From assembly GCA_029252405.1 (NCBI GenBank), contig JAQXBM010000001.1:1-64000 (forward strand): a DNA stretch of 64,000 nt, given 5' to 3'. Both the position numbers and the translations under genes were made by a program. Positions 25,492-41,707 of the stretch are shown here, piece by piece. Every line of letters starts with the position of its first letter. The first letter of the stretch is position 1. The notes under the pieces are model-generated. The model made no database searches and was not told where the DNA came from. It saw nothing but the letters and a program-made list of their open reading frames with translations. This DNA is from Crocinitomicaceae bacterium. Lineage in GTDB: Bacteria; Bacteroidota; Bacteroidia; Flavobacteriales_D; Crocinitomicaceae.

Positions 25492-25519
25492 ATCTGATCA
25501 TTTAACCATCTGATCATTT
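25492..25519. repeat. Direct repeat ATCTGATCATTT, 2 copies, period 16
   Basis: ATCTGATCATTT at 25492-25503 and again at 25508-25519, just after the lipoprotein gene and before the 25606 gene. It mirrors the repeat on the 5' flank of that gene in period and partly in sequence (TCTGAT-x). Confidence 0.7.
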
Positions 25520-25605
25520 TGCCGTCAGATAATCACCGAAAATCGCAACCAAATAGCGAATATTTCGTCTTCATACTACGTATGGGTATTTTTCGTTATA
25601 CGATT

Positions 25606-28600
25606 ATGAATCGTTTTTATTTCCTTTTCCTGCTCCTCATTTCTTTCTCGTTTCGAGGGAATGCGACGCACGTACTCGGAGGTGATATAACTTGGGAATG
25701 CCAAGGCAGTGATTACGTCTTTCAACTTACGTTTTACCGTGATTGTAATGGCGGGATTGTTAACCCAGTAAATGAAACGATTGAGGTTTGGGGACATCCA
25801 ACCTTAACTTCCATAACAGTCAATTTCCAATCTAGAACTGATATTTCACCCCTTTGCACACAAGTTACAGGTGGTCCAGCTCCCTTGGATTGCGGCTCTG
25901 GACAAGGAGGTGGAAACGGAATTGGGGCGATTGAGAAAATCATTTACGTGAGTGATCCCATTGCCATTTCAGGCACGCCTCCAGCTACAGGGTGGGTTTT
26001 CACTTATCAGAATTTTGCTCGAAATGGGAATATCGTCAACCTGATTGATCCCGATATCAAAGGAATTACACTCACCTCAAAAATGTACGAGGTTCCAAAC
26101 AGCGCAGGTGGTTGCGTTGATAATTCACCTCAGTTTTTGCAAGATCCTTACTTCGTGAGTTGTGCTGGTGATCCGTATACGTACAACATGAACGCGATCG
26201 ATCCTGATCTCGATTCTTTGCACATTTCCTTCGGAACACCACTGGATCATTTTCCAGCTCAGACCTACAATCCACCAAGCAGCCCAGCAGAATTAATCTA
26301 TGAAAGTGGATTTTCAGCTAACTCGCCCACTCCAGATGCATCATTCAATCCAGGAAATATTCCTGCGCAACTAAATTCTAGTTCCGGCGAATTGACTTTT
26401 CTCTCAAACACTACCGGAAGCTACGCTGTAAAAATTGTCGCTCGATCCTATCGCAATGGTGTGTTGATTGCTGAAGTTGATCGGGAAATCCAATTGATTG
26501 TTTCGAATTGTAGTGGAACAAACTCACCTCCTCAAGTTACAGGACCATTTGGTGGATTATTTGAAACAACCGTAAACGCTGGCGACCTCGTGAACTTTAC
26601 CCTGAATTCAACAGATGTTGAACTACTTCAGGACGGATCACCTCAGAGCAACCACTTATCCGCATCAGGATTTATGTTCGGAACGAACTTTACGAGTACG
26701 AGCGGATGTACCACTGGACCTTGCGCTACCTTGAATTCAACTCCACTGATCACAGGTGTCCAAGGCGTATCGACGGATTTTAGTTGGCAAACAGATTGTG
26801 ATCACTTGGTCACTCCATTGAACGGAACGGAGGACATGGTTCCTTTCCACTTTGTCTTCAAAATTCAAGATGATTATTGCCCTGTGCCGAAAGTGACCTA
26901 TGCAACGATTACCATCAACGTGGTGAACCCTGGAATTATTCAAGCTCCACAAATCAATTGCATTCAATCGGACGCAACGGGAGATGTGACTATTTCTTGG
27001 GATCAAGTGGCAGACCCAAATGGAACCTTCAACTCCTATCAGATTTTTACGTTGGAAAACGGATTAGTTGGAACTGTTCCAGCGATTGGAACTACATCAT
27101 TTACGGACCCTGGAGTTGGACAGGAATTTCATTATTATATGGCTGTTGCCTCCGGTTGCGATGGAAATTCATTGTCATACAGCGATACTCTTTCGAATAT
27201 TTATCTGGACTTAGTCAATCCAAGCAACGGGACAGCAGTTCTTCAATGGAACGATCCAATTGATCCTGCTCTACCGACAATGAACGATTATTATCACATC
27301 TACCGAGAATTCCCAGCGGGAACTTGGACTTTCTACGACAGTGTAGCATATGGAACCACTTTTTATATCGACACAATTGATATTTGCGATGTGTTCTTGA
27401 GTTATCAAATTATATTGCCAAATCAACCGTGTGCTTTCACTTCTAATATTGCGGGAGATCAATTTGAAGACATGATCACTCCTGATATTCCTGTGATTGA
27501 TTTTGTGACGATCGACACATTAACGAACGGAGTAACGCTTTCATGGAATGAAAATGCCCAGCAAGATACTTACGGATACGTCATCTATACCTTGAATGGA
27601 AGTGGAATCATTGTGGAAATAGACACGGTTTGGGGATTGCCAAATACGACGTATACGCACTTCCCGAACACGGACAATGGATCGCTCACTTATTCGGTTG
27701 CAGCTTTCGATTCTTGTTTTACTGTAGCCGTGCCTCCTACGTATCAGACTTCGGCGAAAGCTCCTATTCATACGAGTGTTTTCGTGACTCCTACTTTGGA
27801 TATTTGTGCACGTGAAGTCAATTTGATTTGGACGGAATACGAAGGATGGAACGCCGTAGCTAGCTATGAGATTTTCGCAAAATGGACAGGACAACCTTGG
27901 ATGAGTTTCGGAACGACAACCGGAACAACGTTCAATCTTCCAATTCAAGACGGACAGGATTATTGCTTCGCGATTAAAGCTGTAAGTTCAGACGGACAAG
28001 AGAGCTTTTCGAATACTTCATGTATTTTTACTTCTTCGCCAAGTCAACCGAGCTACAATTATTTGCAAGTCGCAACCGTGGATGGTGATGAAGTAATTCT
28101 TCGACAACACATTGACAATTCCGTTCCCATTACGGAAATGGCGTTTGAACGAAAAGTGGGTGCGGATCCTTTCGAGGAAATCGGTCGTATACCTGTGAAT
28201 TCGGGAACGTTGACCTATGTTGATACTGACGTGGATGTTCATTCGCAATCCTATGTTTATCGTGCTCGTGTGATTGACAGCTGTTCGAACGAAGGTGGAG
28301 TTTCCAATGAGGCAGAGACAATTTTCTTGGAAGTGCAATTCGATGGGACATCCAAAATATCTTATTTGAACTGGAATGCGTATCGTCAATTCAACGGTTC
28401 AGTAATCGCGTACAGTATTTATCGTGGAATTGATGGTGTGTTTGGAAGTACTCCAGTGGCAAGTGTTGCCAGTAATCAGTTGTCGTATGAAGACGACATG
28501 AATGACATCATTTCTTCGGGAAAAATCTGCTACCGCGTTGAGGCGATTGAAGCGACCAATATTTATGGTTTTAGTGAAATCAGCAGATCGAATGAAGTGT

Positions 28601-28893
28601 GCATCGTGCTTCCTCCATTGATTTACATTCCGAACGCATTTATTCCTGATGGTGTCAACAAAATATTCAGACCCGTTCTTTCTGATTTTGATGCGACAGA
28701 TTACAACTTTGTGATTTTGAATCGTTGGGGTCAAACCTTATTCCAGACGAATTTATACGACGAAGGATGGGATGGAATTATTCCTGCTACCAATCGCGAA
28801 GCTGCTGCAGGATCGTACGTTTATATCATTAGCGTGAAAGATGCGAATGGTGTTGAAACATTGATTCATGGGCATGTTAACTTGTTGAGATAA
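25606..28893 (+). CDS. T9SS type B surface protein with FN3-like domains (1095 aa)
   Basis: The start is set at the ATG 25606, which gives a signal peptide (MNRFYFLFLLLISFSFRGNA); the upstream extension to 25519 is unlikely. The first 330 residues (THVLGGDITWEC, FYRDCNGG) are homologous to the N-terminus of the protein at 32715-34466. The middle holds fibronectin-III-like repeats (VTISWDQVADPNG, VTLSWNENAQQD, VNLIWTEYEGWN). The C-terminus is a type B sorting domain (IPNAFIPDG, ILNRWGQTLFQTN, GWDG, GHVNLLR). Likely cell-surface adhesin. The next gene begins 1 nt after its stop. Confidence 0.92.
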   Translation: MNRFYFLFLLLISFSFRGNATHVLGGDITWECQGSDYVFQLTFYRDCNGGIVNPVNETIEVWGHPTLTSITVNFQSRTDISPLCTQVTGGPAPLDCGSGQGGGNGIGAIEKIIYVSDPIAISGTPPATGWVFTYQNFARNGNIVNLIDPDIKGITLTSKMYEVPNSAGGCVDNSPQFLQDPYFVSCAGDPYTYNMNAIDPDLDSLHISFGTPLDHFPAQTYNPPSSPAELIYESGFSANSPTPDASFNPGNIPAQLNSSSGELTFLSNTTGSYAVKIVARSYRNGVLIAEVDREIQLIVSNCSGTNSPPQVTGPFGGLFETTVNAGDLVNFTLNSTDVELLQDGSPQSNHLSASGFMFGTNFTSTSGCTTGPCATLNSTPLITGVQGVSTDFSWQTDCDHLVTPLNGTEDMVPFHFVFKIQDDYCPVPKVTYATITINVVNPGIIQAPQINCIQSDATGDVTISWDQVADPNGTFNSYQIFTLENGLVGTVPAIGTTSFTDPGVGQEFHYYMAVASGCDGNSLSYSDTLSNIYLDLVNPSNGTAVLQWNDPIDPALPTMNDYYHIYREFPAGTWTFYDSVAYGTTFYIDTIDICDVFLSYQIILPNQPCAFTSNIAGDQFEDMITPDIPVIDFVTIDTLTNGVTLSWNENAQQDTYGYVIYTLNGSGIIVEIDTVWGLPNTTYTHFPNTDNGSLTYSVAAFDSCFTVAVPPTYQTSAKAPIHTSVFVTPTLDICAREVNLIWTEYEGWNAVASYEIFAKWTGQPWMSFGTTTGTTFNLPIQDGQDYCFAIKAVSSDGQESFSNTSCIFTSSPSQPSYNYLQVATVDGDEVILRQHIDNSVPITEMAFERKVGADPFEEIGRIPVNSGTLTYVDTDVDVHSQSYVYRARVIDSCSNEGGVSNEAETIFLEVQFDGTSKISYLNWNAYRQFNGSVIAYSIYRGIDGVFGSTPVASVASNQLSYEDDMNDIISSGKICYRVEAIEATNIYGFSEISRSNEVCIVLPPLIYIPNAFIPDGVNKIFRPVLSDFDATDYNFVILNRWGQTLFQTNLYDEGWDGIIPATNREAAAGSYVYIISVKDANGVETLIHGHVNLLR

Positions 28894-29351: not shown

Positions 29352-30311
29352 GTGAAACGAATTCTTGTTATTCAAACGGCTTTTTTGGGAGATGTCATTT
29401 TGGCGACGCCAGTTCTTTCTGAATTGAAGCGCTTGTTTCCGAATGCTCAATTGGATATGTTGGTAAAGAAAGGAAATGAATCTTTGCTGCTGAACAATCC
29501 GCATTTGCATGAGTTGCATGTTTTGAATAAATCCAACGGGAAATGGAAAGCAATTTTCGGTTTGATCAAAGAATTTCGAAAGAATGAATACGACCTTGTG
29601 ATCAACCTACATCGTTTTGGAAGTTCCGGATTGATTACCGCCTTCTCAAAAGGGAAAAAGCGCTACGGCTTTCGGAAGAATCCCTTTTCGTTTTTGTATA
29701 CCAAACGATTTGATCATAACATTGGTGATGGAACGCACGAGGTAGAAAGAAACCTATCAGTTATTGCTGAATTTGGAACGGAGAAACGCGTTCGACCTGA
29801 ATTATTTCCTTCGGAGAAAGACCAAGCTGCCATTCAAGAGTATGTGAAGGAGAACTATTATTGCATTGCCCCTGCTTCGGTATGGTTCACAAAACAACTT
29901 CCCGCCGAAAAGTGGGTAGAACTCGTTCAGAAATTTGATGCCGATTCGACCATTTATATTCTTGGGGCGCCAGGTGATAAGGAATTGGGTGATTCAATTA
30001 TTGAAAAAGCCAGTCATTCAGGAGTTATCAATTTAGCGGGAAAACTGAGCTTGTTGCAATCGGCGGCGCTAATGAAAACCGCAGCTCGATCTTACGTGAA
30101 TGATTCTGGGCCACTGCATTTGGCGTCGAGTGTGAATGCGAATGTTACTGCCTTCTTTTGTTCAACAATTCCAGATTTTGGATTTGGCCCCTTGTCGGAT
30201 GATTCAGAAATCAAGCAAGTTGAAGGTTTGGATTGTCGTCCGTGTGGAATTCATGGACACAAAGCGTGCCCGAAAGGTCATTTTGATTGTTCGAAGATTA
30301 ATCTTTCTTGA
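29352..30311 (+). CDS. Glycosyltransferase family 9 (heptosyltransferase-like)
   Basis: 319 residues with the GT9 (LPS heptosyltransferase) plan: N-terminal KRILVIQTAFLGDVILATPVL (Gly-Asp of the donor domain), DLVINLHRFGSSGLI in the first domain, YCIAPASVWFTKQLP after the linker and NDSGPLHLASSVN near residue 255 (the donor-binding Asp/His segment). The start is a GTG at 29352. The protein transfers a sugar from a nucleotide donor to lipid A core or similar. The C-terminus is Cys/His-rich (CRPCGIHGHKACPKGHFDC), which is common in Bacteroidota members. Convergent with the next gene, overlapping by 14 nt. Confidence 0.93.
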   Translation: MKRILVIQTAFLGDVILATPVLSELKRLFPNAQLDMLVKKGNESLLLNNPHLHELHVLNKSNGKWKAIFGLIKEFRKNEYDLVINLHRFGSSGLITAFSKGKKRYGFRKNPFSFLYTKRFDHNIGDGTHEVERNLSVIAEFGTEKRVRPELFPSEKDQAAIQEYVKENYYCIAPASVWFTKQLPAEKWVELVQKFDADSTIYILGAPGDKELGDSIIEKASHSGVINLAGKLSLLQSAALMKTAARSYVNDSGPLHLASSVNANVTAFFCSTIPDFGFGPLSDDSEIKQVEGLDCRPCGIHGHKACPKGHFDCSKINLS

Positions 30312-31995
30312 CTTTTTCCCCGTCAACGTATTCATCTACACGTACAAAGGAACCGTTCTCACTGTCATAGACAATGCATGTGCCATTTCCATTTACCAAT
30401 GTCCCTTTATCAACTGGGTTACCATCCATATCGTTCGTTTCAACTATTTCCATCAACTTACCATGCTCGTACCTCTTAATGGTCTTAGTAACACCGTTAA
30501 CATAATTGAATTGACATAAGCCATGTCTTTCACCTTCAAAATTAGAAATGATCGTTTTTTCAATACCAGAGTCATAATACCACCGTGTGGAACCGTGCTT
30601 TTTTCCTGCACGAAATTGGACTATTCCTTTTGTTGAACCATCTTTAAATAAAACTTTATAATCACCGGATCTTTTCCCGTCTTTATATGGACATGTAGCA
30701 TTAATCTCACCAGTATCGTAATACCACGTGCTAATCCCATTCAATTCTCCGTATCGATATGACGATTCTCTTGCAACCTCTCCATTCTTATGATAAAAAC
30801 GTTGACCTATAACCCATTTCGCTCGCTGATTTTGAATTTCCTTGAGATTTCCATCTTCGTCGTATTCAAACCAGTTAGAGAGACCGTTCATTTTGTTATA
30901 GCCATCATTATGGTGTTTCTTTACACCTACTTTTTTGATTTTATCATCTGGAAACAGATCGCAATCGTACATAAACACTCCGTCGTAGAATGCCAGGTAA
31001 TTCGCTTTTTCTCGCTTGGCTGTCTCAAACCCAAGAACAAGTATATGACTCATGTGTTTCTGATATGAAACGTCTTTACCATTATTCATTATCACTCTCT
31101 TTATTCCCAATTCCTCAAGATCCAATTCATAGAAAAACGCCATAAACTCCTTCATCAAAATATTGCATGAATCCAGGTCATAACCATCAGTAAAGTGCTT
31201 TTTCATGGATTCTAAAATTGGTTCTCTCTTCGAAATCAATTTTTCGAACTCCACAACTTCCATTTCCGAAAGTTCTCTTTCCTCTTCCTTAACTAATTTT
31301 AGCTCCCCCTCAGCGACTACCTCTTTTATTTGGGCGATATAACTCTTTGTATCTCTTAGATATCTATCCCTTTTCTCTTCTAAGTACGTTGGTTCGGGAT
31401 TTGCGTATGTATTCAATTCCTTCCTGTACTCCTGCAATTTTCTATTGTTCTCACGGATTTTTGCATTTATATCATCTACCCTATCATTATAGTCCTTATT
31501 TTTTTCATTGTATTTATTAATCAGATCATTATAAGATTTTCGATTCGCACTCATCATACTGTACTCGCCAGAGCAACCAGACGAGCCATTGTTATAGACG
31601 CACAATTCATAGGTTGCCTTAGAAAGATTCAATCTTCGTTTGGCGTTTTTCACATTCGATTCTAACCTTGAGAGGTCGGAATTTAAAGCAACAAATCTTT
31701 TATATTCATCTGATTCGGAAAAGTCATTAAATTCCGGTTTTGGCTCAGCTTCTCCTGACTTTTCCTCTTCGATTACATCTTGCACTGCATCTAAGTATGC
31801 TTGTTCCTTATCTAAAAAGGATTGAGCTAAATCTTCCCGCCCCATAATCTGAAGAGCAGCTTTTTTCCTTTCCACCTCAGAAGAATCCATATAGTCCAAA
31901 TAGACCTTCTCAAATACTTTTTTATAATCAGTTTCTTGGGCAAATGAAAAGCTCATTAAACCAAGAACAAATAGAGGGACTAAAATAGATTTCAT
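30298..31995 (-). CDS. Secreted MORN/YwqK-repeat protein with coiled-coil N-terminal half (565 aa)
   Basis: A signal peptide (VLGLMSFSFAQ) starts the protein. The first half is highly charged and helical (RLESNVKNAKRRLNLSK, KNKDYNDRVDDINAKIRENN), a probable coiled coil at about residues 85-250, with one short Cys/Gly patch (CVYNNGSSGCSG). The second half has MORN_2/YwqK-type repeats: GNLKEI, GEVARESSYRYGELNGI, GEINATCPYKDGKRSGDY, GSTKGIVQFRAGKKHGS, IEKTIISNFEGERHGL. Such repeats appear in periplasmic or secreted proteins of unknown role. Base composition looks more A+T-rich than the neighbours, so transfer is possible. No T9SS domain. Confidence 0.8.
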   Translation of the reverse strand: MKSILVPLFVLGLMSFSFAQETDYKKVFEKVYLDYMDSSEVERKKAALQIMGREDLAQSFLDKEQAYLDAVQDVIEEEKSGEAEPKPEFNDFSESDEYKRFVALNSDLSRLESNVKNAKRRLNLSKATYELCVYNNGSSGCSGEYSMMSANRKSYNDLINKYNEKNKDYNDRVDDINAKIRENNRKLQEYRKELNTYANPEPTYLEEKRDRYLRDTKSYIAQIKEVVAEGELKLVKEEERELSEMEVVEFEKLISKREPILESMKKHFTDGYDLDSCNILMKEFMAFFYELDLEELGIKRVIMNNGKDVSYQKHMSHILVLGFETAKREKANYLAFYDGVFMYDCDLFPDDKIKKVGVKKHHNDGYNKMNGLSNWFEYDEDGNLKEIQNQRAKWVIGQRFYHKNGEVARESSYRYGELNGISTWYYDTGEINATCPYKDGKRSGDYKVLFKDGSTKGIVQFRAGKKHGSTRWYYDSGIEKTIISNFEGERHGLCQFNYVNGVTKTIKRYEHGKLMEIVETNDMDGNPVDKGTLVNGNGTCIVYDSENGSFVRVDEYVDGEKVKKD

Positions 31996-32714: not shown

Positions 32715-34466
32715 TTACTTAATAATGTGAACGAAGCCATGTGCCGTGTAAAGCGTCTTCTCCTGATCATCATATTCGTACTTCACGCTTTCAGGCGTTA
32801 CGATGTACGTGTACACTCCTGCTTCTAACTCATTTCCTGAAACATCAAGTCCTTTCCAATCGTTTTGATAGTCCTCCGATTCGAAAACGAGGTTACCCCA
32901 ACGGTTGAAAATTTGCAGTCGAACGCGGTCGTAATCCTCAATGTTCTTTATGATAAATTCATCATTGATATCATCCCCATTCATGGTAATCACATTCGGG
33001 ACTTTCAGCGGGCATCGGTTGTAGACGGGTATGAGCCCTGACGATATATTCTGTCCACAGCCATCGACGACATTTACTGACATTTCTGTCAAGTTTGGAT
33101 CGAGATCTGTTGCAGGGAATGAAATGGAATCATTATTTGCATAAGGCGTTGGAGCCCATGCATACGTGTACGGTCCTACTCCATTCTGAACATTACACCA
33201 CAGCAATCCGTATTCATCAATTTCATCACAAATGTTGGTACTATCTCCCCAATCAATCGTCATTGGAATGTAATCCTGAATTGTCAAGTAAGCAGTTGTT
33301 GTATCAAAGGTATTTTCACAAGGATTCTCAACAATGATGCTAAAGGTAACCGTTTCGTTTCCTTCTGTAATCCCGTCTCCGTACGGAACGATTGAAATCG
33401 TATCTGTGAAAACTCCTGTTGGAATTGTAATAGATGATCCCAATGTGTTGTAATCAACTCCGTTCGTAGCCGTTCCAGAAACGAGCACTTCGATCGTCAA
33501 AGAAGAATCAGCAGTTGTTCTTTCAATTATAAATCCGGCAGAGCTACAATCTTCAATCAAAACACCAGCTCCAAGCAATGAAACCTCGATTGGCAATTCA
33601 ACATCACATGTCACCACTCGATAACCGAATGTTCTTGTTTTACTGTTGATTAATACTCCATTTCGGTATTCCTCCACACAAACTCCGGCAACGTAAGTCC
33701 CGACAAGTCCTGGAGTAATGTCCATAATTCCTGTTTGTGGATCAATCGTAACGTTAGATCCTGGTCCCCAAGGTTGAGGTCCACTAAAACCTGGCTCCCA
33801 TATTACATCTGCATAAGGCGGAGCGTACTCAGGGTTTGGTTCTGCTACTGTTCCCGATGGTCCTAAATCAACCGTTTTTGGTGTACACATGGAATAAACC
33901 AAGGAATCACCATCAATATCAGTAGCAATGTGATCAAATGTAAAGGTCAAGTTCGAACAAAGCACAATTGGCGGGTAGTTATCAAATCGAGCAGCGTTGT
34001 TATCAAATTGTCCGACCAAAGTCGTCCCCGGTACATCTGTCTCAATTGTAAGTCCCCAAGAACCTGGGTTGACAATATTCTGAATGTTATTCGCCCAGCA
34101 GCAACGTTGATATACGATTCTGTATCCGTCTGCAGTGGCAGGAAGTGTAATTGTCGTGATGTAAATCGCACGTTCAATACAGATATCCGTTGGTGGCGTC
34201 ACACATGGATCATCGTAAATAATTGGTAAAGTATCTGGCACTGGCAAAGGAATTGAATACTCTGAAAACTGTGCTCCTGCTCCTGTAAAAACAGTGAACT
34301 GCAGAGGTGAATCAAAACCAGATCCTGAACAATCTCGATACACTTCGAATGTTACTCTGTACTGATCATTCCCTAGAGAATCGTAGTAAACTTCTCCTCC
34401 AACAATGTGCGATGCGAATGTCGATGAACAAACAAGCAACATCAATGCGACTAATACCTTTTTCAT
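32715..34466 (-). CDS. T9SS type B surface protein with Calx-beta domain (583 aa)
   Basis: Signal peptide (LMLLVCSSTFA), then SHIVGGEVYYDSLGNDQYRV and FEVYRDCSG, homologous to the N-terminus of the 25606-28893 protein. A Calx-beta-like stretch (SSLTIEVLVSGTATNGVDY, ITEGNETVTFSIIV) follows at about 310-390, then a Pro-rich bridge, and a type B sorting domain at the end (VPNVITMNGDDINDEF, IFNRWGNLVFESED, GVYTYIVTP). Type B clients usually need a PorP/SprF partner for export; one is encoded at 55256-56263. Likely adhesin. No enzyme motif. Confidence 0.92.
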   Translation of the reverse strand: MKKVLVALMLLVCSSTFASHIVGGEVYYDSLGNDQYRVTFEVYRDCSGSGFDSPLQFTVFTGAGAQFSEYSIPLPVPDTLPIIYDDPCVTPPTDICIERAIYITTITLPATADGYRIVYQRCCWANNIQNIVNPGSWGLTIETDVPGTTLVGQFDNNAARFDNYPPIVLCSNLTFTFDHIATDIDGDSLVYSMCTPKTVDLGPSGTVAEPNPEYAPPYADVIWEPGFSGPQPWGPGSNVTIDPQTGIMDITPGLVGTYVAGVCVEEYRNGVLINSKTRTFGYRVVTCDVELPIEVSLLGAGVLIEDCSSAGFIIERTTADSSLTIEVLVSGTATNGVDYNTLGSSITIPTGVFTDTISIVPYGDGITEGNETVTFSIIVENPCENTFDTTTAYLTIQDYIPMTIDWGDSTNICDEIDEYGLLWCNVQNGVGPYTYAWAPTPYANNDSISFPATDLDPNLTEMSVNVVDGCGQNISSGLIPVYNRCPLKVPNVITMNGDDINDEFIIKNIEDYDRVRLQIFNRWGNLVFESEDYQNDWKGLDVSGNELEAGVYTYIVTPESVKYEYDDQEKTLYTAHGFVHIIK

Positions 34467-34616: not shown

Positions 34617-36392
34617 CTAGCCTCTACCTCGCGTTGGTGTTGAGCGAGTTGGAGTCGATTTTGTCGGCGTCGAACGTGTTGGCGTTGACCTCGTTGGCGT
34701 CGATCGAGTCGGAGTAGTTGTCCTAGTGGGCGTGCTCCTTGTCGGGGTCGATCTCGTTGGGGTCGAACGTGTCGGTGAAGTCGTTCTCGTTGGTGTTGAA
34801 CGCGTTGGTGACGTTGTTCTCGTCGGCGTAGAACGTGTCGGCGATGTAGTTCTTGTCGGAGTCGATCTCGTGGGAGATGTTGTTCTCGTTGGAGTTGATC
34901 TCGTTGGAGAAGTCGTTCTACTCGGAGTTGTTCGAACCGGTTTCGATGGTCGCTCCAATGCTGGTGAAGTCGTGTAACGAGGTTTCGGTTTCGATTCTGT
35001 CTTCACTGGCTTTGGCTCAGTTTTGATTGATTCACCTTTGCTCGACTGCGGCTTCGTCTCTCCCATTGGAAGTGGCGTACGCGGTTGGTTTGGAAGATCC
35101 GAACCTTTATCAGCTTCAGTAATTGGCTCATTCACATTTGGTTTAACTTCGCGAACTGGCTTCATTTCCATTCCTTCAGTTGGATCGTGCACTACTGGTG
35201 CTGGACTCGGCGTGATGTTCAAATGAGAATTATCAAAAATACATCCGTTCATATCACGGCTTGAGATTCCTTGTTGCTCACATGTTCTGCGTGCAGCCAT
35301 TCTGCGATCTCTTGGGATTTCGTTGAATGTTCTGTGAACTCTTGGGAAAGATCGATCTGTGAAAGACGCTGTTGATCTTCCAGGAGCGTAATCGAACAAT
35401 GTTGTCAAGTTTGTTACTCGGTATTGATCAGCCATTGTATTCGCTAAAAATGCCAATCTTCTTTGCTCAATATCTCTAGAGACACTTCCAAATGGATCTG
35501 ATCCAGCAGTCATTCTCAAATCTTGTCGATCATTCAATCCACGGAAATCATCTCCTTCAAAACCGTTAGCATTTCCTAACAATCCATCAAAGATTCCTTC
35601 GCTACAGTCAGTAATTTGCACATTCACATTCATGAAAGACATTCCTCCACTTCTTCGGATTTGTGCTGTTACCGTCTCACCTGTTGGCCAAGCAACAGTA
35701 TAAGTTCTACCTGAAACACGGATCGTTCCACCATTATTCAAGAAATAGGCTTTGCTTGTTCCTACTTGAACCGCTCTACCACCTACACGAACAGGAGTCG
35801 ATCGATCACCATCTGGGTAATCTGATGCGTAAATACATACGCGATCTCCACCTACATTCATTGCGACAGCAGTATTTAAAGAGAAATCATCTCTTTGTGG
35901 TTTCTGACGAGCTTGAACTTCAAGACCTGACGTTGATTTTGTTAAAACGAATTCTCCAACAGTTTGGAAAGAATAACGTGCACCATCGAAAGTTACTAGG
36001 TGCGGATCACCATACGTTCGAGCGCTTCGTCTTCCACATCCAGCTCCTGGACGAACAACGACTCTGCGGATTTCATTCCATTGAGCTTGCTCTGCTGCAG
36101 AACCATTTGTATTTGCAATTATCGTGCGCTCCAGGTTTGAACGGGTCTTATCTGGCAGCTGCGACACCATTTGTGCTGGCGTAATATCTTCTGGGAAAGT
36201 TCTATCTGGGATTGGCTCCTGTTTCGACATAGCTTCTAAGCTTGATGAAAGCCATGGTCCACGAATAGGGTCCCATTCTTCCAATTCCAAGCGAACTGGG
36301 TCATAATTCTTGTTGAATTGATTATCTTCTTGTGCGAGTGCTGTTCCTAGGAAAGCGAGGCATGAAACAATTAATAGGTAGCTTTTTCTCAT
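34617..36392 (-). CDS. Secreted von Willebrand factor D domain protein with Pro-Thr-Arg repeat tail (591 aa)
   Basis: The start chosen is the ATG at 36392, because it gives a clear signal peptide (MRKSYLLIVSCLAFLGTALAQ); the upstream extension to 36443 is implausible. After a spacer, a VWD domain covers about residues 125-290 with GDPHLVTFDGARYSF and ITDCSEGIFDGLLGNANG plus DDFRG; the Cys usually present in GLCGN is Leu here. A Pro/Lys-rich linker (about 385-480) leads into a strongly basic tail made of about 17 PTR units (see repeat). No T9SS sorting domain and no membrane anchor. Function unknown. Confidence 0.88.
   Translation of the reverse strand: MRKSYLLIVSCLAFLGTALAQEDNQFNKNYDPVRLELEEWDPIRGPWLSSSLEAMSKQEPIPDRTFPEDITPAQMVSQLPDKTRSNLERTIIANTNGSAAEQAQWNEIRRVVVRPGAGCGRRSARTYGDPHLVTFDGARYSFQTVGEFVLTKSTSGLEVQARQKPQRDDFSLNTAVAMNVGGDRVCIYASDYPDGDRSTPVRVGGRAVQVGTSKAYFLNNGGTIRVSGRTYTVAWPTGETVTAQIRRSGGMSFMNVNVQITDCSEGIFDGLLGNANGFEGDDFRGLNDRQDLRMTAGSDPFGSVSRDIEQRRLAFLANTMADQYRVTNLTTLFDYAPGRSTASFTDRSFPRVHRTFNEIPRDRRMAARRTCEQQGISSRDMNGCIFDNSHLNITPSPAPVVHDPTEGMEMKPVREVKPNVNEPITEADKGSDLPNQPRTPLPMGETKPQSSKGESIKTEPKPVKTESKPKPRYTTSPALERPSKPVRTTPSRTTSPTRSTPTRTTSPTRSTPTRTTSPTRSTPTRTTSPTRSTPTRTTSPTRSTPTRSTPTRSTPTRTTTPTRSTPTRSTPTRSTPTKSTPTRSTPTRGRG
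34620..34910 (-). repeat. In-frame repeat encoding PTRST/PTRTTS units
   Basis: 97 codons encode alternating SPTRST and PTRTT units (five of the first, four of the second), then mostly PTRST to the end, with one Lys variant and a final GRG. That makes about 17 Pro-Thr-Arg triplets. Codons vary between units (for example CGT, CGA and CGC or CGG for Arg), so the repeat is old or under coding selection rather than a fresh slippage expansion. Confidence 0.9.
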
Positions 36393-37028: not shown

Positions 37029-38333
37029 TTATCCTCCGAAGTCGTCGAAACGAACTTGCTCGTCAGGAACACCCCACTCATCACACATTGTGAGAACGGC
37101 TTGGTTCATCAATGGAGGTCCACAGAAGTAGAATTCAATGTCTTCTGGAGCTTCGTGCTTCTCAAGGTATTCTTTGATTACAGCATTGTGTACGAAGCCT
37201 GTAAATCCATCACCTTCTGGATCGTTGATGTCTTTCTTGTTTACCCAGTTATCTGATTCAAGTGCATCAGAAAGAACTAAGTAGAACTTGAAATTCGGGA
37301 AGTCCTTTTCTAGATCCCGGAAATAGTGAATGTAGAACAACTCTGCTCTTGAACGACCACCGTACCAGTAAGTCACCTTACGTCCAGTTTTAATCGTTTT
37401 GAATAATTCATATAAGTGAGAACGCATTGGCGCCATTCCCGCTCCACCACCGATGTAGAGCATTTCCGCATCTGAATCGTTGATAAAGAACTCGCCATAA
37501 GGTCCTGAAATAACTGCTTTGTCACCTACCTTCAAGTTGAAGATATACGATGAAGCAACACCAGGGTTAACGTTCATCCAGGCGTTACGTGCGCGATCCC
37601 ATGGTGGAGTAGCAACACGAACGTTCAACATGATTTTACGTCCTTCAGCAGGGTAAGAAGCCATTGAGTATGCACGAACAACTTCTTCGTCGTTCTTCAT
37701 TACTAGTGGCCACAATCCGAATTTATCCCAATCAGACTTGAACTTATCCGGCTCACCTGGGTGATCTTGAGGATGTGCTGAGATATCCATGTCTTCGTAT
37801 TTCACTACGCAATTCGGGATCTTAATCTGAATGTATCCTCCCGCTTTGTAATCCATGTCTTCTGGAATCTCTACGATGAACTCCTTAATGAAAGTTGCCA
37901 CGTTGTAGTTAGAAACTACTTCCGCTTCCCATTCTTTAATTCCAAGAACTTCTTCTTCCACTTCAATCTTCATGTTCTCTTTCACCTTCACTTGACATCC
38001 CAGGCGCATATTCGCTGCGATTTCTTTACGTGAAAAGTGTGGCTCTTCCGTTGGAAGAATTCCTCCTCCACCTTCGTGAACGTGACATAAACATTGAACA
38101 CATGTTCCTCCTCCTCCACAAGCTGAAGGCAAGAAGATTCCGTTGCTTCCGAGTGTACTCAAAAGAGTTCCTCCTCCGTCAACTTCTAATATTTTCTCTC
38201 CATTGTTGATGTCGATAGTGATCTTTCCCGAAGGAGAAAGTTTCGCTTTTACGAACAACAACATCGATACAAGCACCAAGATAATAATCAAAAATGCTAC
38301 GATCGTAATTCCTATAACCATTCCTGTTCCCAT
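37029..38333 (-). CDS. nqrF: Na+-translocating NADH:quinone reductase subunit F
   Basis: 434 residues; takes electrons from NADH and passes them into the complex. One N-terminal membrane helix, then a plant-type 2Fe-2S domain with Cys72, Cys78, Cys81 and Cys113 (ACGGGGTCVQC, LGCQV), an FAD-binding RAYSMASYP segment at about 220 and an NADH domain (IGGGAGMAPMRSHLYE, YWYGGRSRAE, FYFCGPPLMNQAV). All known cofactor ligands are present and the length fits. Last gene of the operon; 2 nt after nqrE. Terminator follows. Confidence 0.97.
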   Translation of the reverse strand: MGTGMVIGITIVAFLIIILVLVSMLLFVKAKLSPSGKITIDINNGEKILEVDGGGTLLSTLGSNGIFLPSACGGGGTCVQCLCHVHEGGGGILPTEEPHFSRKEIAANMRLGCQVKVKENMKIEVEEEVLGIKEWEAEVVSNYNVATFIKEFIVEIPEDMDYKAGGYIQIKIPNCVVKYEDMDISAHPQDHPGEPDKFKSDWDKFGLWPLVMKNDEEVVRAYSMASYPAEGRKIMLNVRVATPPWDRARNAWMNVNPGVASSYIFNLKVGDKAVISGPYGEFFINDSDAEMLYIGGGAGMAPMRSHLYELFKTIKTGRKVTYWYGGRSRAELFYIHYFRDLEKDFPNFKFYLVLSDALESDNWVNKKDINDPEGDGFTGFVHNAVIKEYLEKHEAPEDIEFYFCGPPLMNQAVLTMCDEWGVPDEQVRFDDFGG

Positions 38334-38335
38334 AC

Positions 38336-39031
38336 CTAATAATCGTTATTTTCGTTTGCGTTATCATCAACTACTACCACTTGAGCAGTTTTCTTGTCGT
38401 CTTCTCCGTCTTTTCCGTACTTGATTCCCATGAATGCCATGAAAGCGATTCCCATTAATCCTGTAAGAATAAACGTAATTCCTAATCCCCTCAGCGGAGC
38501 AGGAACGTTTGAGTAACGAACTTTCTCACGAATTGCGGCAATAGCAACAATGGCGATGAACCATCCAATTCCTGAACCTACAGAGAATGCTGTTGCATCC
38601 AAAATTGTAGAGTATTGACGCTCTTGCATGAAGAGTGCACCACCCAAGATCGAACAATTCACGGCGATCAGTGGAAGGAAGATTCCCAAGGCACCGTAAA
38701 GCGCAGGGGCGAATTTCTCAACCAACATCTCAACCAATTGTACAATCGATGCTACAACGGCGATGAACATAATGAATGACAAGAAGCTCAAATCTAGGTC
38801 AGCCCATTCAGGGTTCAACCACTCTAATGCTCCTTCTTTCAATAAATAGTTCTCCAAAAGGTAGTTTACCGGAACTGTAACTGTCAATACGAAAATAACG
38901 GCAGCTCCAAGTCCAACGGCTGTCTTCACTGTTTTCGATACAGCGAGGTATGAACACATCCCAAGGAAATATGCGAAAATCATATTTTCCGAGAAGATTG
39001 CTTTTACAAATATGTCTAAAGTACTTTCCAT
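38336..39031 (-). CDS. nqrE: Na+-translocating NADH:quinone reductase subunit E
   Basis: 231 residues with six membrane helices. The two Cys that bind the intramembrane iron-sulfur cluster shared with NqrD are present: Cys26 (FLGMCSYLA) and Cys126 (AVNCSILGG). The C-terminal tail is longer than in Vibrio and acidic (DGEDDKKTAQVVVVDDNANENNDY), so it is probably cytosolic and without known role. 2 nt before nqrF, 25 nt after nqrD. Confidence 0.96.
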   Translation of the reverse strand: MESTLDIFVKAIFSENMIFAYFLGMCSYLAVSKTVKTAVGLGAAVIFVLTVTVPVNYLLENYLLKEGALEWLNPEWADLDLSFLSFIMFIAVVASIVQLVEMLVEKFAPALYGALGIFLPLIAVNCSILGGALFMQERQYSTILDATAFSVGSGIGWFIAIVAIAAIREKVRYSNVPAPLRGLGITFILTGLMGIAFMAFMGIKYGKDGEDDKKTAQVVVVDDNANENNDY

Positions 39032-39056
39032 AATCTTTCTATTTGATCTCTATTTC

Positions 39057-39737
39057 CTAGTGCTCTTCGATTAGCGCAGTGTTTCGAGATCTTTGAACCC
39101 AAATAATGATTCCCACAATGATCAATGCCATTGGAGGGAGGATCATCATGTTGTTATTCATATACCCCATTGTATATAATCCCCATTCTTCTCCAGGCAG
39201 TGGACTTCCAAAGATTGGAATACCGTAGAATGAACCAGACCCGAACAACTCACGAATAATTGATACCAGGATCAAAATCCAAGCATATCCGAATGAGTTT
39301 CCAAGTGCATCCATGAACGAAGGCCAAGGTTTGTTCGCCATTGCGAATGCCTCAAATCGTCCCATGATGATACAATTGGTAATAATCAACCCGACGAATA
39401 CCGAGAGTTTCTCTGATACATCTGGTAAGAATGCTGCAAGCAATTGGTCAACGATAATTACCAAGGAGGCAACTACTACCAATTGAACAATGATTCGAAT
39501 TCTTGAAGGAATCATATTACGTAGTAACGAAATAATTACGTTACCAAAAATCAATACGAACAATACTGCTGCACTCATTACAACTCCTTGCTCAACCTGA
39601 ACCGTAATGGCCAGTGCTGAACAAATCCCTAATACTTGAATTGTAATTGGGTTGTTGTCCGTAAGAGGATCTGTCACAAGCTTCTTATTCTTCTTTGAGA
39701 ATAATGGCTCGCTTGGTTTTTTTACATCTTCACTCAT
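39057..39737 (-). CDS. nqrD: Na+-translocating NADH:quinone reductase subunit D
   Basis: 226 residues, six membrane helices. Cluster-binding Cys39 (VLGICSALAI) and Cys122 (IITNCIIMGRFEAF) are conserved. About 20 extra residues at the N-terminus, polar and Lys-rich, precede the first helix. Starts 6 nt after nqrC. Confidence 0.96.
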   Translation of the reverse strand: MSEDVKKPSEPLFSKKNKKLVTDPLTDNNPITIQVLGICSALAITVQVEQGVVMSAAVLFVLIFGNVIISLLRNMIPSRIRIIVQLVVVASLVIIVDQLLAAFLPDVSEKLSVFVGLIITNCIIMGRFEAFAMANKPWPSFMDALGNSFGYAWILILVSIIRELFGSGSFYGIPIFGSPLPGEEWGLYTMGYMNNNMMILPPMALIIVGIIIWVQRSRNTALIEEH

Positions 39738-39743
39738 GACTCT

Positions 39744-40478
39744 CTATTTTTTCAATGTTTTGAAATAAGCGATATATGGCAACAAACAACGGTTAACCAT
39801 TTCTTCAACTCCTTTTGAAGTAATTGTCCCTCCAGTAATACCATCAACCTTTGAAGGTTTCGTACTACCCGATTTATCTTTTACTACCTCAAATTTTGAA
39901 AAATCTCCATTTTCATCTGAAACCGTTTCACCGATCCAACCCTTAATGAAGAAATCTTGTTTGATCTCTGCACCCAGTCCCGGTGTCTCGGTTTTGTGAT
40001 CGAAAGATGCTCCTTTGATTGTTCGCATATCTTCATCCAGACAGATATTCCCCCATACTGGTCCCCAAAGACCTTTACCTACACAAGGAATAACGTACGC
40101 TTTCTTTCCGTCAATTGTCGCAATGAACATTGGATAATCTTTGTTCTCTTCCTTCAATTTCTTATCACGGAATTGTTTCTTGATATCAATATCGAATGCC
40201 GCAGTATCCTTCAATGCTCCGTTCATATCAAGAACGATCGCATCATCAAGATTAACATACTTCTCGAACTCATCTTTCGCATTCTTACGCGTGATCTTAC
40301 TGTAGTCATCTTTTGTAAGAATGGCTTTCAGAATGTCCATCTTCTTCTTTACTTCCTGATTCTTCTCTTGGAAGGGTTTTGTCCACATCGCAATTCCTGC
40401 GAGAAGAACCCCAACCACAACTACCAATGCAACTGCGAAGCCGAAAGTATATCCGTTGCTATCTCTATTCACTGCCAT
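39744..40478 (-). CDS. nqrC: Na+-translocating NADH:quinone reductase subunit C
   Basis: 244 residues: one N-terminal membrane helix and a periplasmic FMN domain. The flavin-carrying Thr is Thr218 in GITGGTITSKG, the SGAT-like motif read by the flavin transferase ApbE. Residues HKTETPGLGAE (161-171) are the usual FMN-binding approach. No apbE gene is in the window. Starts 2 nt after nqrB. Confidence 0.97.
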   Translation of the reverse strand: MAVNRDSNGYTFGFAVALVVVVGVLLAGIAMWTKPFQEKNQEVKKKMDILKAILTKDDYSKITRKNAKDEFEKYVNLDDAIVLDMNGALKDTAAFDIDIKKQFRDKKLKEENKDYPMFIATIDGKKAYVIPCVGKGLWGPVWGNICLDEDMRTIKGASFDHKTETPGLGAEIKQDFFIKGWIGETVSDENGDFSKFEVVKDKSGSTKPSKVDGITGGTITSKGVEEMVNRCLLPYIAYFKTLKK

Positions 40479-40480
40479 GA

Positions 40481-41707
40481 TTATGCTGTTTTAAGTCGTT
40501 TAAGTCTACGCTTGACATTCGCCTGAATAACGTAGTGATCGATGATCGGTGCCATTACATTCATAAATAAAATCGATAGCATTACTCCCTCAGGATATGC
40601 TGGATTCAACACACGAATGAAAATCGCAATCAATCCTCCGAAAAATCCATAAATTATTTTCCCCGTTGCTGTTTGCGCTGCAGTTACTGGATCTGTTGCC
40701 ATAAATACTGCTCCGAAAGCAAAACCACCTATCAGTAAGTGATGCATTGCAGGTAAATCCATGTAAGGATTTGAACCAATTGCATTCATTAAGAAACCTC
40801 CAGCCAATCCACCAATAGCGAATGAAAGCATGATTCTCAATGAACCAACCCCAGTGAAGAGTAATAATGCCGCACCTATCAAACATGCGATCACAGAAGT
40901 TTCCCCTACCGAACCAGGAACCATCCCCATAAAAGAATCCATAATTGAGTATGTATTCTGGAACATCGTAACGGCGGCCTCACTTGTGCCCTCGACGACT
41001 TCCGTCCCGGCAACCATCATTTTATCTGAAGTAAAGGTAGCCAAATCACCTAGAGCTGTTGAACCTGTAAACCCATCCACTTCATCTCCTGCCATCCAAA
41101 CGAAATCTCCTGACATCTTAGTTGGATAAGCAAAGAATAAGAATGCACGCGCTGTAAGAGCTACATTTACGATATTCATTCCAGTTCCTCCGAAGATTTC
41201 CTTTCCGATCACTACAGCAAATACGGTTGCAACAGCAACCATCCACAATGGAACATCAGCAGGCATTACTAAAGGAATCAACATCCCTGACACCAAGAAT
41301 CCTTCGTGAAGTGCATGCCCTTTGATTACACCGAAAATGAACTCAACGATTAATCCAGATGCATAGGATACCACAACAAGTGGAAGTACAACAAATGCAC
41401 CAGCTCCAACTTTTGACCAGAATTGATCTAGATATGGAATAGCACGATTTCCTTCTTGGGCCACAAGTTCCCAGTGGCCTGTATTGTAAATTCCAAATAA
41501 CAAACATGGCACTAGCGCCAAGATAACCATCATCATGGTACGCTTTAAATCCACCCCGTCACGGATATGTGAACCTTTCGAAGTCGTAATCGCTGGTGTA
41601 AATGCCAGCGTTGTAAACGATTCGAAGATCGGGTTCCATTTCTCGAGTTTACCACCTTTGGCAAACTTCGGTTCATGTTTGTGAACGATTTTTTCTAAAA
41701 ATTTCAC
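40481..41707 (-). CDS. nqrB: Na+-translocating NADH:quinone reductase subunit B
   Basis: 408 residues, about ten membrane helices; carries covalent FMN and riboflavin and forms the Na+ path. The flavinylated Thr is Thr217 in VDGFTGSTALGD. N-terminal LEKWNPIFESFTTLAF and HIRDGVDLKRTM match the family; GHALHEGFLVSGMLIPL sits in the helix bundle. Between about 195 and 250 there is an extra acidic loop (AGDEV and KMMVAGTEVVEGTSE) typical of Bacteroidota. 19 nt after nqrA. Confidence 0.97.
   Translation of the reverse strand: MKFLEKIVHKHEPKFAKGGKLEKWNPIFESFTTLAFTPAITTSKGSHIRDGVDLKRTMMMVILALVPCLLFGIYNTGHWELVAQEGNRAIPYLDQFWSKVGAGAFVVLPLVVVSYASGLIVEFIFGVIKGHALHEGFLVSGMLIPLVMPADVPLWMVAVATVFAVVIGKEIFGGTGMNIVNVALTARAFLFFAYPTKMSGDFVWMAGDEVDGFTGSTALGDLATFTSDKMMVAGTEVVEGTSEAAVTMFQNTYSIMDSFMGMVPGSVGETSVIACLIGAALLLFTGVGSLRIMLSFAIGGLAGGFLMNAIGSNPYMDLPAMHHLLIGGFAFGAVFMATDPVTAAQTATGKIIYGFFGGLIAIFIRVLNPAYPEGVMLSILFMNVMAPIIDHYVIQANVKRRLKRLKTA

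Follow-up and report, generated by a model that had tools for sequence, protein, structure and literature searches.

The systems closest to the protein considered here are von Willebrand D (VWD) domains of animal proteins that are cut at a GDPH motif. In FCGBP, Yeshaya and co-workers (PMC10880436) describe a cut of domain D10 between the Asp and Pro of this motif (GD/PH), which is stopped by Asp-to-Ala, Asp-to-Asn and His-to-Asn substitutions and to which a Gln located 14 residues after the Asp (+14) contributes, Gln mutants being still partly cut; the purpose of GDPH cleavage in VWD domains is stated there to be still open. The VWD domains of SUSD2, MUC4 and RGM are also cut at GDPH. In the SUSD2 study, disulfides between the two fragments are needed, and the cutting may not be self-cleavage since it was inhibited by a serine-protease inhibitor (PMC6696261). 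Bacterial autocleavage after the Asp of a GDPH motif is described for the MIIA domain of NopE and VIC_001052, which is likened to the present protein by this motif and differs from it in being disordered, in folding on calcium and in belonging to type III secretion-linked proteins (PMC6506597, in part). Taken singly, the VWD domain, the GDPH motif and Pro-rich tails have precedents; a bacterial family that unites them was not found in the open-licence literature, among the matches listed, nor was any paper title on a bacterial VWD domain among those matches, and no paper on Crocinitomicaceae and von Willebrand was found in that literature.

The window analysed here is the whole 64,000-nucleotide stretch of DNA from a Crocinitomicaceae bacterium, and one of its genes encodes a VWD protein with a Pro-Thr-Arg (PTR) tail, which belongs to an exported VWD family of Crocinitomicaceae. 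The reading that we favour, with about even chances and on the strength of sequence comparison and a structural model, is that of an exported, self-cleaving, disulfide-latched VWD head on an electrostatic arm that would bind a polyanion of the envelope or matrix. The features of the gene are the following:

34617..36392, minus strand: VWD protein gene, 591 residues plus stop (ATG at 36392, stop at 34617-34619)
36333..36392, minus strand: presumed Sec signal peptide, residues 1-20, ending in ALA before Q (sequence and homologues, by eye)
36039..36332, minus strand: N-terminal helical domain, residues 21-118 (AlphaFold pLDDT 91.8)
36036..36038, minus strand: Cys119, invariant in 64/64 members, proposed disulfide partner Cys263
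35541..36020, minus strand: VWD domain, residues 125-284 (Pfam PF00094 and fold)
36000..36011, minus strand: GDPH, residues 128-131, predicted cut between Asp129 and Pro130 (conservation, and PMC10880436 in part)
35964..35966, minus strand: Gln143, at Asp+14, counterpart of FCGBP Gln4094 (alignment)
35604..35606, minus strand: Cys263, invariant in 64/64 members
35562..35585, minus strand: GLLGNANG, residues 270-277, without the canonical CGLCG cysteines (sequence and alignment)
35220..35480, minus strand: helical module after the VWD, residues about 305-391, with Cys371 and Cys384 (putatively C8-like, by fold match)
34932..35150, minus strand: linker, residues 415-487 (sequence)
34620..34931, minus strand: PTR tail, residues 488-591, 18 PT[RK] units (sequence and Tandem Repeats Finder)
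34620..34628, minus strand: C-terminal Gly-Arg-Gly, residues 589-591 (sequence)

A previous sequence-only reading of this DNA had described a VWD domain with GDPHLVTFDG, a Cys-to-Leu change in GLLGNANG and the lack of both a T9SS sorting domain and an anchor, and this description is borne out. Pfam PF00094 matches at E 2.1e-13 (51.3 bits vs a cut-off of 22.9), and the Leu is present. No NCBIfam family, those for T9SS sorting domains (type A or type B) included, matched the protein at E<=1, the adjoining ORF at 32718-34466 serving as positive control with a TIGR04131 score of 9.1e-11. No usable lipobox was seen, Cys11 being too near the N-terminus and not conserved (Phe in the homologue L006), signal peptide and lipobox having been judged by eye; no membrane anchor was seen in the protein either. 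As a Sec signal is combined with neither a T9SS domain nor a lipobox, the default location would be the periplasm, the other candidate being the surface. Support for the word 'secreted' in that reading extends to Sec export. The reading mentioned neither the autocleavage signature nor the module that follows the VWD, nor a paralogue with a helix-like tail rich in Glu, Arg and Lys (E/R/K).

Likeness to the VWD-C8 assembly of FCGBP (PDB 8qci, 8rde; PMC10880436, in part) is found in the GDPH with Gln at +14 (as in FCGBP D10), in the VWD followed by a helical module and in presumed secretion; the first strand, disulfide-tied in FCGBP, is probably so in the window protein. Unlike FCGBP, the window protein has no CGLCG cysteines, two cysteines against eight in the module, a single VWD, a helical N-terminal domain, a basic tail and no Pfam C8 or TIL domain. 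SUSD2, MUC4 and RGM differ from it in being animal proteins with other partner domains, and no such tail was noted in them. In its own genome, the N-terminal domain was found by search only in the window protein and its paralogue, and it gave no clear fold relative, the best Foldseek E being 1.3 and the best Z 5.5, a value that for helical bundles may reflect merely a common arrangement.

The family was detected in 33 of the 34 genomes of the genus, in one of them (G041) by a 61-residue fragment alone, and the sole genome without a match (G001) is 99% complete. In a sample of the order, 92 of 299 genomes match, all except one (G034) within the window's own family; within that family, at least 20 sampled genomes lack a match, with 187 further misses in the sample unlisted. 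A named collection gave 187 encoding stretches, of which 80 were kept, titled largely Crocinitomicaceae, Fluviicola, Taishania and unclassified Flavobacteriales/Bacteroidetes. Family members are also carried by records titled Glaciecola amylolytica, Chryseobacterium gleum, Actinomyces viscosus and Candidatus Kuenenia stuttgartiensis (L098, L083, L118 and L104, respectively), titles that look wrong. Few genomes sampled across the phylum have PF00094 (5/395 at E<=1e-8, own genome included). Other VWD proteins were met: the products of an additional, divergent VWD gene in each of G004 and G022 (L029 and L030), without a Pro-rich basic tail; a protein of family f11 (L027:802-2607), whose basic Ser/Arg-rich low-complexity region is N-terminal, not C-terminal, and whose VWD is followed by an RGM_C match below cut-off; and very long proteins of family f25 (L146, L147, L148 and L151), with open frames of 1563-3001 residues.

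The fold of the head was examined on an AlphaFold model of residues 21-430 (pLDDT 91.2, pTM 0.91). Foldseek returned 46 matches at E<=0.001, all of them D assemblies of mucins, VWF or FCGBP apart from a Cypridina luciferase. Alignment with VIA-align gave Z 21.3 against MUC5AC (225 residues, rmsd 3.0, model residues 98-383), Z 13.2 against vitellogenin and Z 11.7 against RGMB. Since a 225-residue match exceeds what a 160-residue VWD can supply, the helical module that follows it probably resembles C8, even with no more than two cysteines; which residues of the matched chain form C8 is our assumption. At a Pfam threshold of E<=0.1, the 64 aligned members gave a VWD match in 64/64, weak RGM_C matches in 10/64 and no C8 or TIL domain.

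Cys119, Cys263, Cys371 and Cys384 are invariant in the 64 aligned members. In ten more distant proteins, read by eye, Cys119 and Cys263 are kept in 10/10; Cys371 and Cys384 are both lost in seven, both kept in two and split in one (L193). Cys119 and Cys263 are missing together in L027, L029 and L030, and in the last two Cys371 is kept and Cys384 gone. Pairs 119-263, across the predicted cut, and 371-384, within the module, fit this distribution, with the splits in L193, L029 and L030 as exceptions; the pairing was proposed by elimination and co-loss, and the Cys371/Cys384 pattern failed in 23/121 rows of a wider locus tally. Position 272, where the canonical GLC cysteine would stand, is Leu, Met or Phe in 64/64 members, one of the two scan patterns itself having required Leu or Met there; the loss is therefore family-wide, and assembly by canonical VWF-type disulfides is not expected.

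The tail of the window protein, called as a repeat array by Tandem Repeats Finder, has 104 residues (T45 P19 R19 S18 G2 K1) with no Asp or Glu, so that the earlier figures of about 97 residues and about 17 Arg were slightly low for a repeat that is otherwise real. The calculated pI is 10.1 for the mature protein, 5.8 for the core alone and 12.0 for the tail. Tails were counted in 85 complete proteins of 90 distinct ones, leaving out L014, L016 and L025 (incomplete) and L027 and L029 (without the anchor and the tail end, and without such a tail at the C-terminus); four of the 123 loci (L028, L030, L031 and L123) gave no protein. A held-out set of 65 loci comprised 34 counted loci, 21 repeats of the first set or run-offs, and ten (L193-L202) that had missed the held-out search pattern and were read by eye. 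The background consisted of 539 mechanical ORFs taken from the homologues' flanks.

Net charge of the last 60 residues is positive in 85/85 homologues and 34/34 held-out proteins (44% of the background), and reaches at least 8 in 45/85 homologues vs 0.7% of background ORFs. At least nine Pro occur in the last 60 residues of 76/85 homologues vs 0/539 other flank ORFs, and Gly together with Lys or Arg within the last five residues in 80/85 homologues and 34/34 held-out proteins (5.2% of the background); 54/85 homologues end exactly in GKG, GGR, RGG, GRG, KGG or GGK, vs 0/539. With tail starts set by a rough anchor and the L009 tail cut short, the charge of the whole tail ranges from -7 to +28 and is positive in 82/85; it is negative in three E/R/K helix-tailed paralogues, whose last 60 residues still carry +10 to +12. 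The basic low-complexity tail noted by the sequence-only reading is thus a trait of the family, which fits putative polyanion binding.

The wording of the tail is less stable. PT[RK] units number 18 in the window protein, 12 in L008, 11 in L033, 10 in L006 and L019, 9 in L015 and 8 in L032; the two nearest relatives of the window protein, L004 and L005, have 2 and 0. A search for the tail in relatives, as had been suggested, therefore recovers its basic composition, but L004 and L005 have other wording in place of the exact PTR repeat: it is the composition that persists, not the repeat. On a quick core tree, four tail classes, set by our own thresholds, need 21 changes, and the PTR class five, three of them forced by well-supported branches. 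The PTR repeat is clade-specific; basic charge and the Gly-Lys/Arg end persist across the family. The earlier proposal was to fall with a disrupted frame, or if every close homologue lacked the tail or had another one in its place; no frame disruption was found in the ORF at 34617-36392, and the tail is retained as described. Fresh slippage of the window array was rejected: the array looks old, as its units show 68% mean DNA identity with differences mostly at third codon positions (518 vs 226). The L006 array is more uniform (86%). In L007 and L043 an assembly gap (a run of N) interrupts the tail repeat.

O-glycosylation of the tail, the other option raised at first, is disfavoured by sequence counts. 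The Bacteroidota motif is D-S/T-(A/I/L/V/M/T) (PMC8550257, in part). This sequon is absent from the window protein and from the 85 first-set tails, where 19.7 were expected (100 shuffles, range 11-28); in these tails 0/40 D[ST]x vs 38/123 E[ST]x carry the motif ending, and 11 dissimilar first-set members have 0 vs 3.4 expected. The 34 held-out tails, a set of little power, contain two vs 3.7 expected, so that strict exclusion is not upheld and the first set shows no more than a tendency to avoid the sequon. Background ORFs classed as signal-peptide-like by a crude rule are sequon-enriched (339 vs 205.1 expected), and the other ORFs are not (236 vs 232.6). Member cores have 13 vs 110 expected, a count of little weight since core columns are homologous.

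Among alternatives to polyanion binding, a tail acting as a reach-arm or spacer, which would hold the head off a partner or span the periplasm and owe its charge to solubility and extension, is possible, if rather unlikely. It is favoured by the fast turnover of tail wording and by the paralogue L002 (own genome, contig C67; 52-54% identical across the core), which swaps in a tail of 177 residues, E/R/K-rich, helix-like and ending SGGR, with a match to TolA TIGR02794 of 43.2 bits, under the cut-off of 59.45. This tail type is also found in G040 (L120/L046) and G047 (L121/L048/L034), and its bearers form one clade (SH-aLRT 100, quick tree). As a helix, the L002 tail would measure about 27 nm, compared with about 32 nm for the PTR tail fully extended as a polyproline helix. 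TonB has a Pro-rich periplasmic spacer and TolA a helical one, and the present tails resemble them as Pro-rich or charged-helix extended segments, the likeness to TonB being presumed on our part. Unlike TonB and TolA, however, the window protein has no inner-membrane anchor that could be seen, while a spacer needs something at both ends; and the positive last 60 residues, recurring even in the helix-tailed members, would be needless for a plain spacer.

For the self-cleaving head of the favoured reading, the residues concerned are nearly invariant. Asp129 is found in 62 of the 64 aligned members (Glu in two, giving GDPH 62/64 and GEPH 2/64), and Pro130, His131 and Gln143 each in 64/64, the Gln count being biased because one of the two patterns used to find members contained this Gln. 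Both scan patterns lie in the VWD, and the ORF pickers used VWD motifs, GDPH among the alternatives. The spacing of Asp129, His131 and Gln143 equals that of D4080, H4082 and Q4094 of FCGBP. GDPH with the Gln was found in 34/34 held-out proteins, from a whole-genome profile search that was not tied to the Gln pattern, and, by eye, in ten of ten more distant proteins (nine of genus g23, one of g26). L029 has GDPH and L030 GEPH, both with Phe at +14, and the f25 proteins have GDPH with Gln (one) or His (three); in other mouse FCGBP GDPH domains an alignment shows Met, so that Gln is not obligatory in animals. These conservation data make it probable that the VWD of the window protein is self-cleaving at the Asp129-Pro130 bond. 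For the two GEPH members, analogy may offer a precedent in SUSD2 only, whose cutting may need a protease.

GDPH could instead be an uncut structural turn, in an ordinary periplasmic VWD protein whose low-complexity tail has no specific function. We regard this as improbable: it would agree with the fact that no report of cleavage in a bacterial VWD was found in the open-licence literature, among the matches listed, but against it stand the near-invariance of Asp, Pro, His and the Gln at +14, the lack of GDPH in some VWDs with a sound fold (MUC5B domains, by alignment), and the charge, the Pro content and the end of the tail, which are all far from background. Quite improbable too is a role of the Gly-Lys/Arg C-terminus as a sorting or processing signal for some as yet unnamed surface-export or anchoring machine, in spite of the persistence of the extreme C-terminus (80/85 and 34/34) and of its exact endings in homologues alone (54/85 vs 0/539), since sorting tags are normally common to many cargos, such endings occur in 0/129 background ORFs with a signal peptide by the crude rule, and the PTR tail as query finds itself alone in its own genome (next match E 4), by which a sorting tag shared in this genome was rejected.

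Deduction of a function from an operon was also rejected, as the neighbours change between genera and no partner gene was found. An nqrF-like gene lies directly upstream of the VWD gene in 18/84 loci (L067 counted by hand), and other upstream neighbours include dus-, thiH- and moeB-like genes and a response regulator, all named by sequence reading. In the window, genes reading as subunits of a Na+-translocating NADH:quinone reductase lie directly upstream (37029-41707, by sequence reading); a protein with MORN_2 repeats is encoded at 30298-31995, and at 25519-28893 a protein of about 1100 residues that contains a T9SS type B (CHU_C) domain and matches fibronectin III below cut-off.

Under the electrostatic-arm reading, the architecture, the conservation of the cleavage residues, the invariant cysteines and the persistent basic tail, as read from sequences and model, would be brought together as follows. 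After Sec export the VWD would fold and cut itself at Asp129-Pro130 in the manner of FCGBP, MUC5AC and RGM domains, giving an acidic helical fragment of roughly 12 kDa and a basic fragment of roughly 51 kDa that a Cys119-Cys263 disulfide would keep together. The latched head would display a disordered, basic and unglycosylated C-terminal arm, whose positive charge and Gly-Arg end may attach to an acidic polymer, be it one of the envelope or one of the surrounding matrix, and we infer for the protein the role of an electrostatically tethered scaffold.

More tentatively, and with a good deal less confidence, the family may represent a Crocinitomicaceae version of mucin/FCGBP processing, in which a latched self-cleaving VWD-C8 head with an interchangeable, O-glycan-free cationic arm (of PTR, RP/KP or charged-helix type, fast-evolving) would form an electrostatically cross-linked layer, periplasmic or at the surface. 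Cleavage of VWD domains at GDPH is studied in animal proteins, and a compact bacterial family with a single VWD and intact cleavage residues would be a simple system for asking what the cut is for; Fluviicola chungangensis MAH-3 (L097) and Taishania pollutisoli (L105) are cultured strains that have it. The family also illustrates clearly how a disordered tail can change in sequence and yet keep its charge and its C-terminal end.
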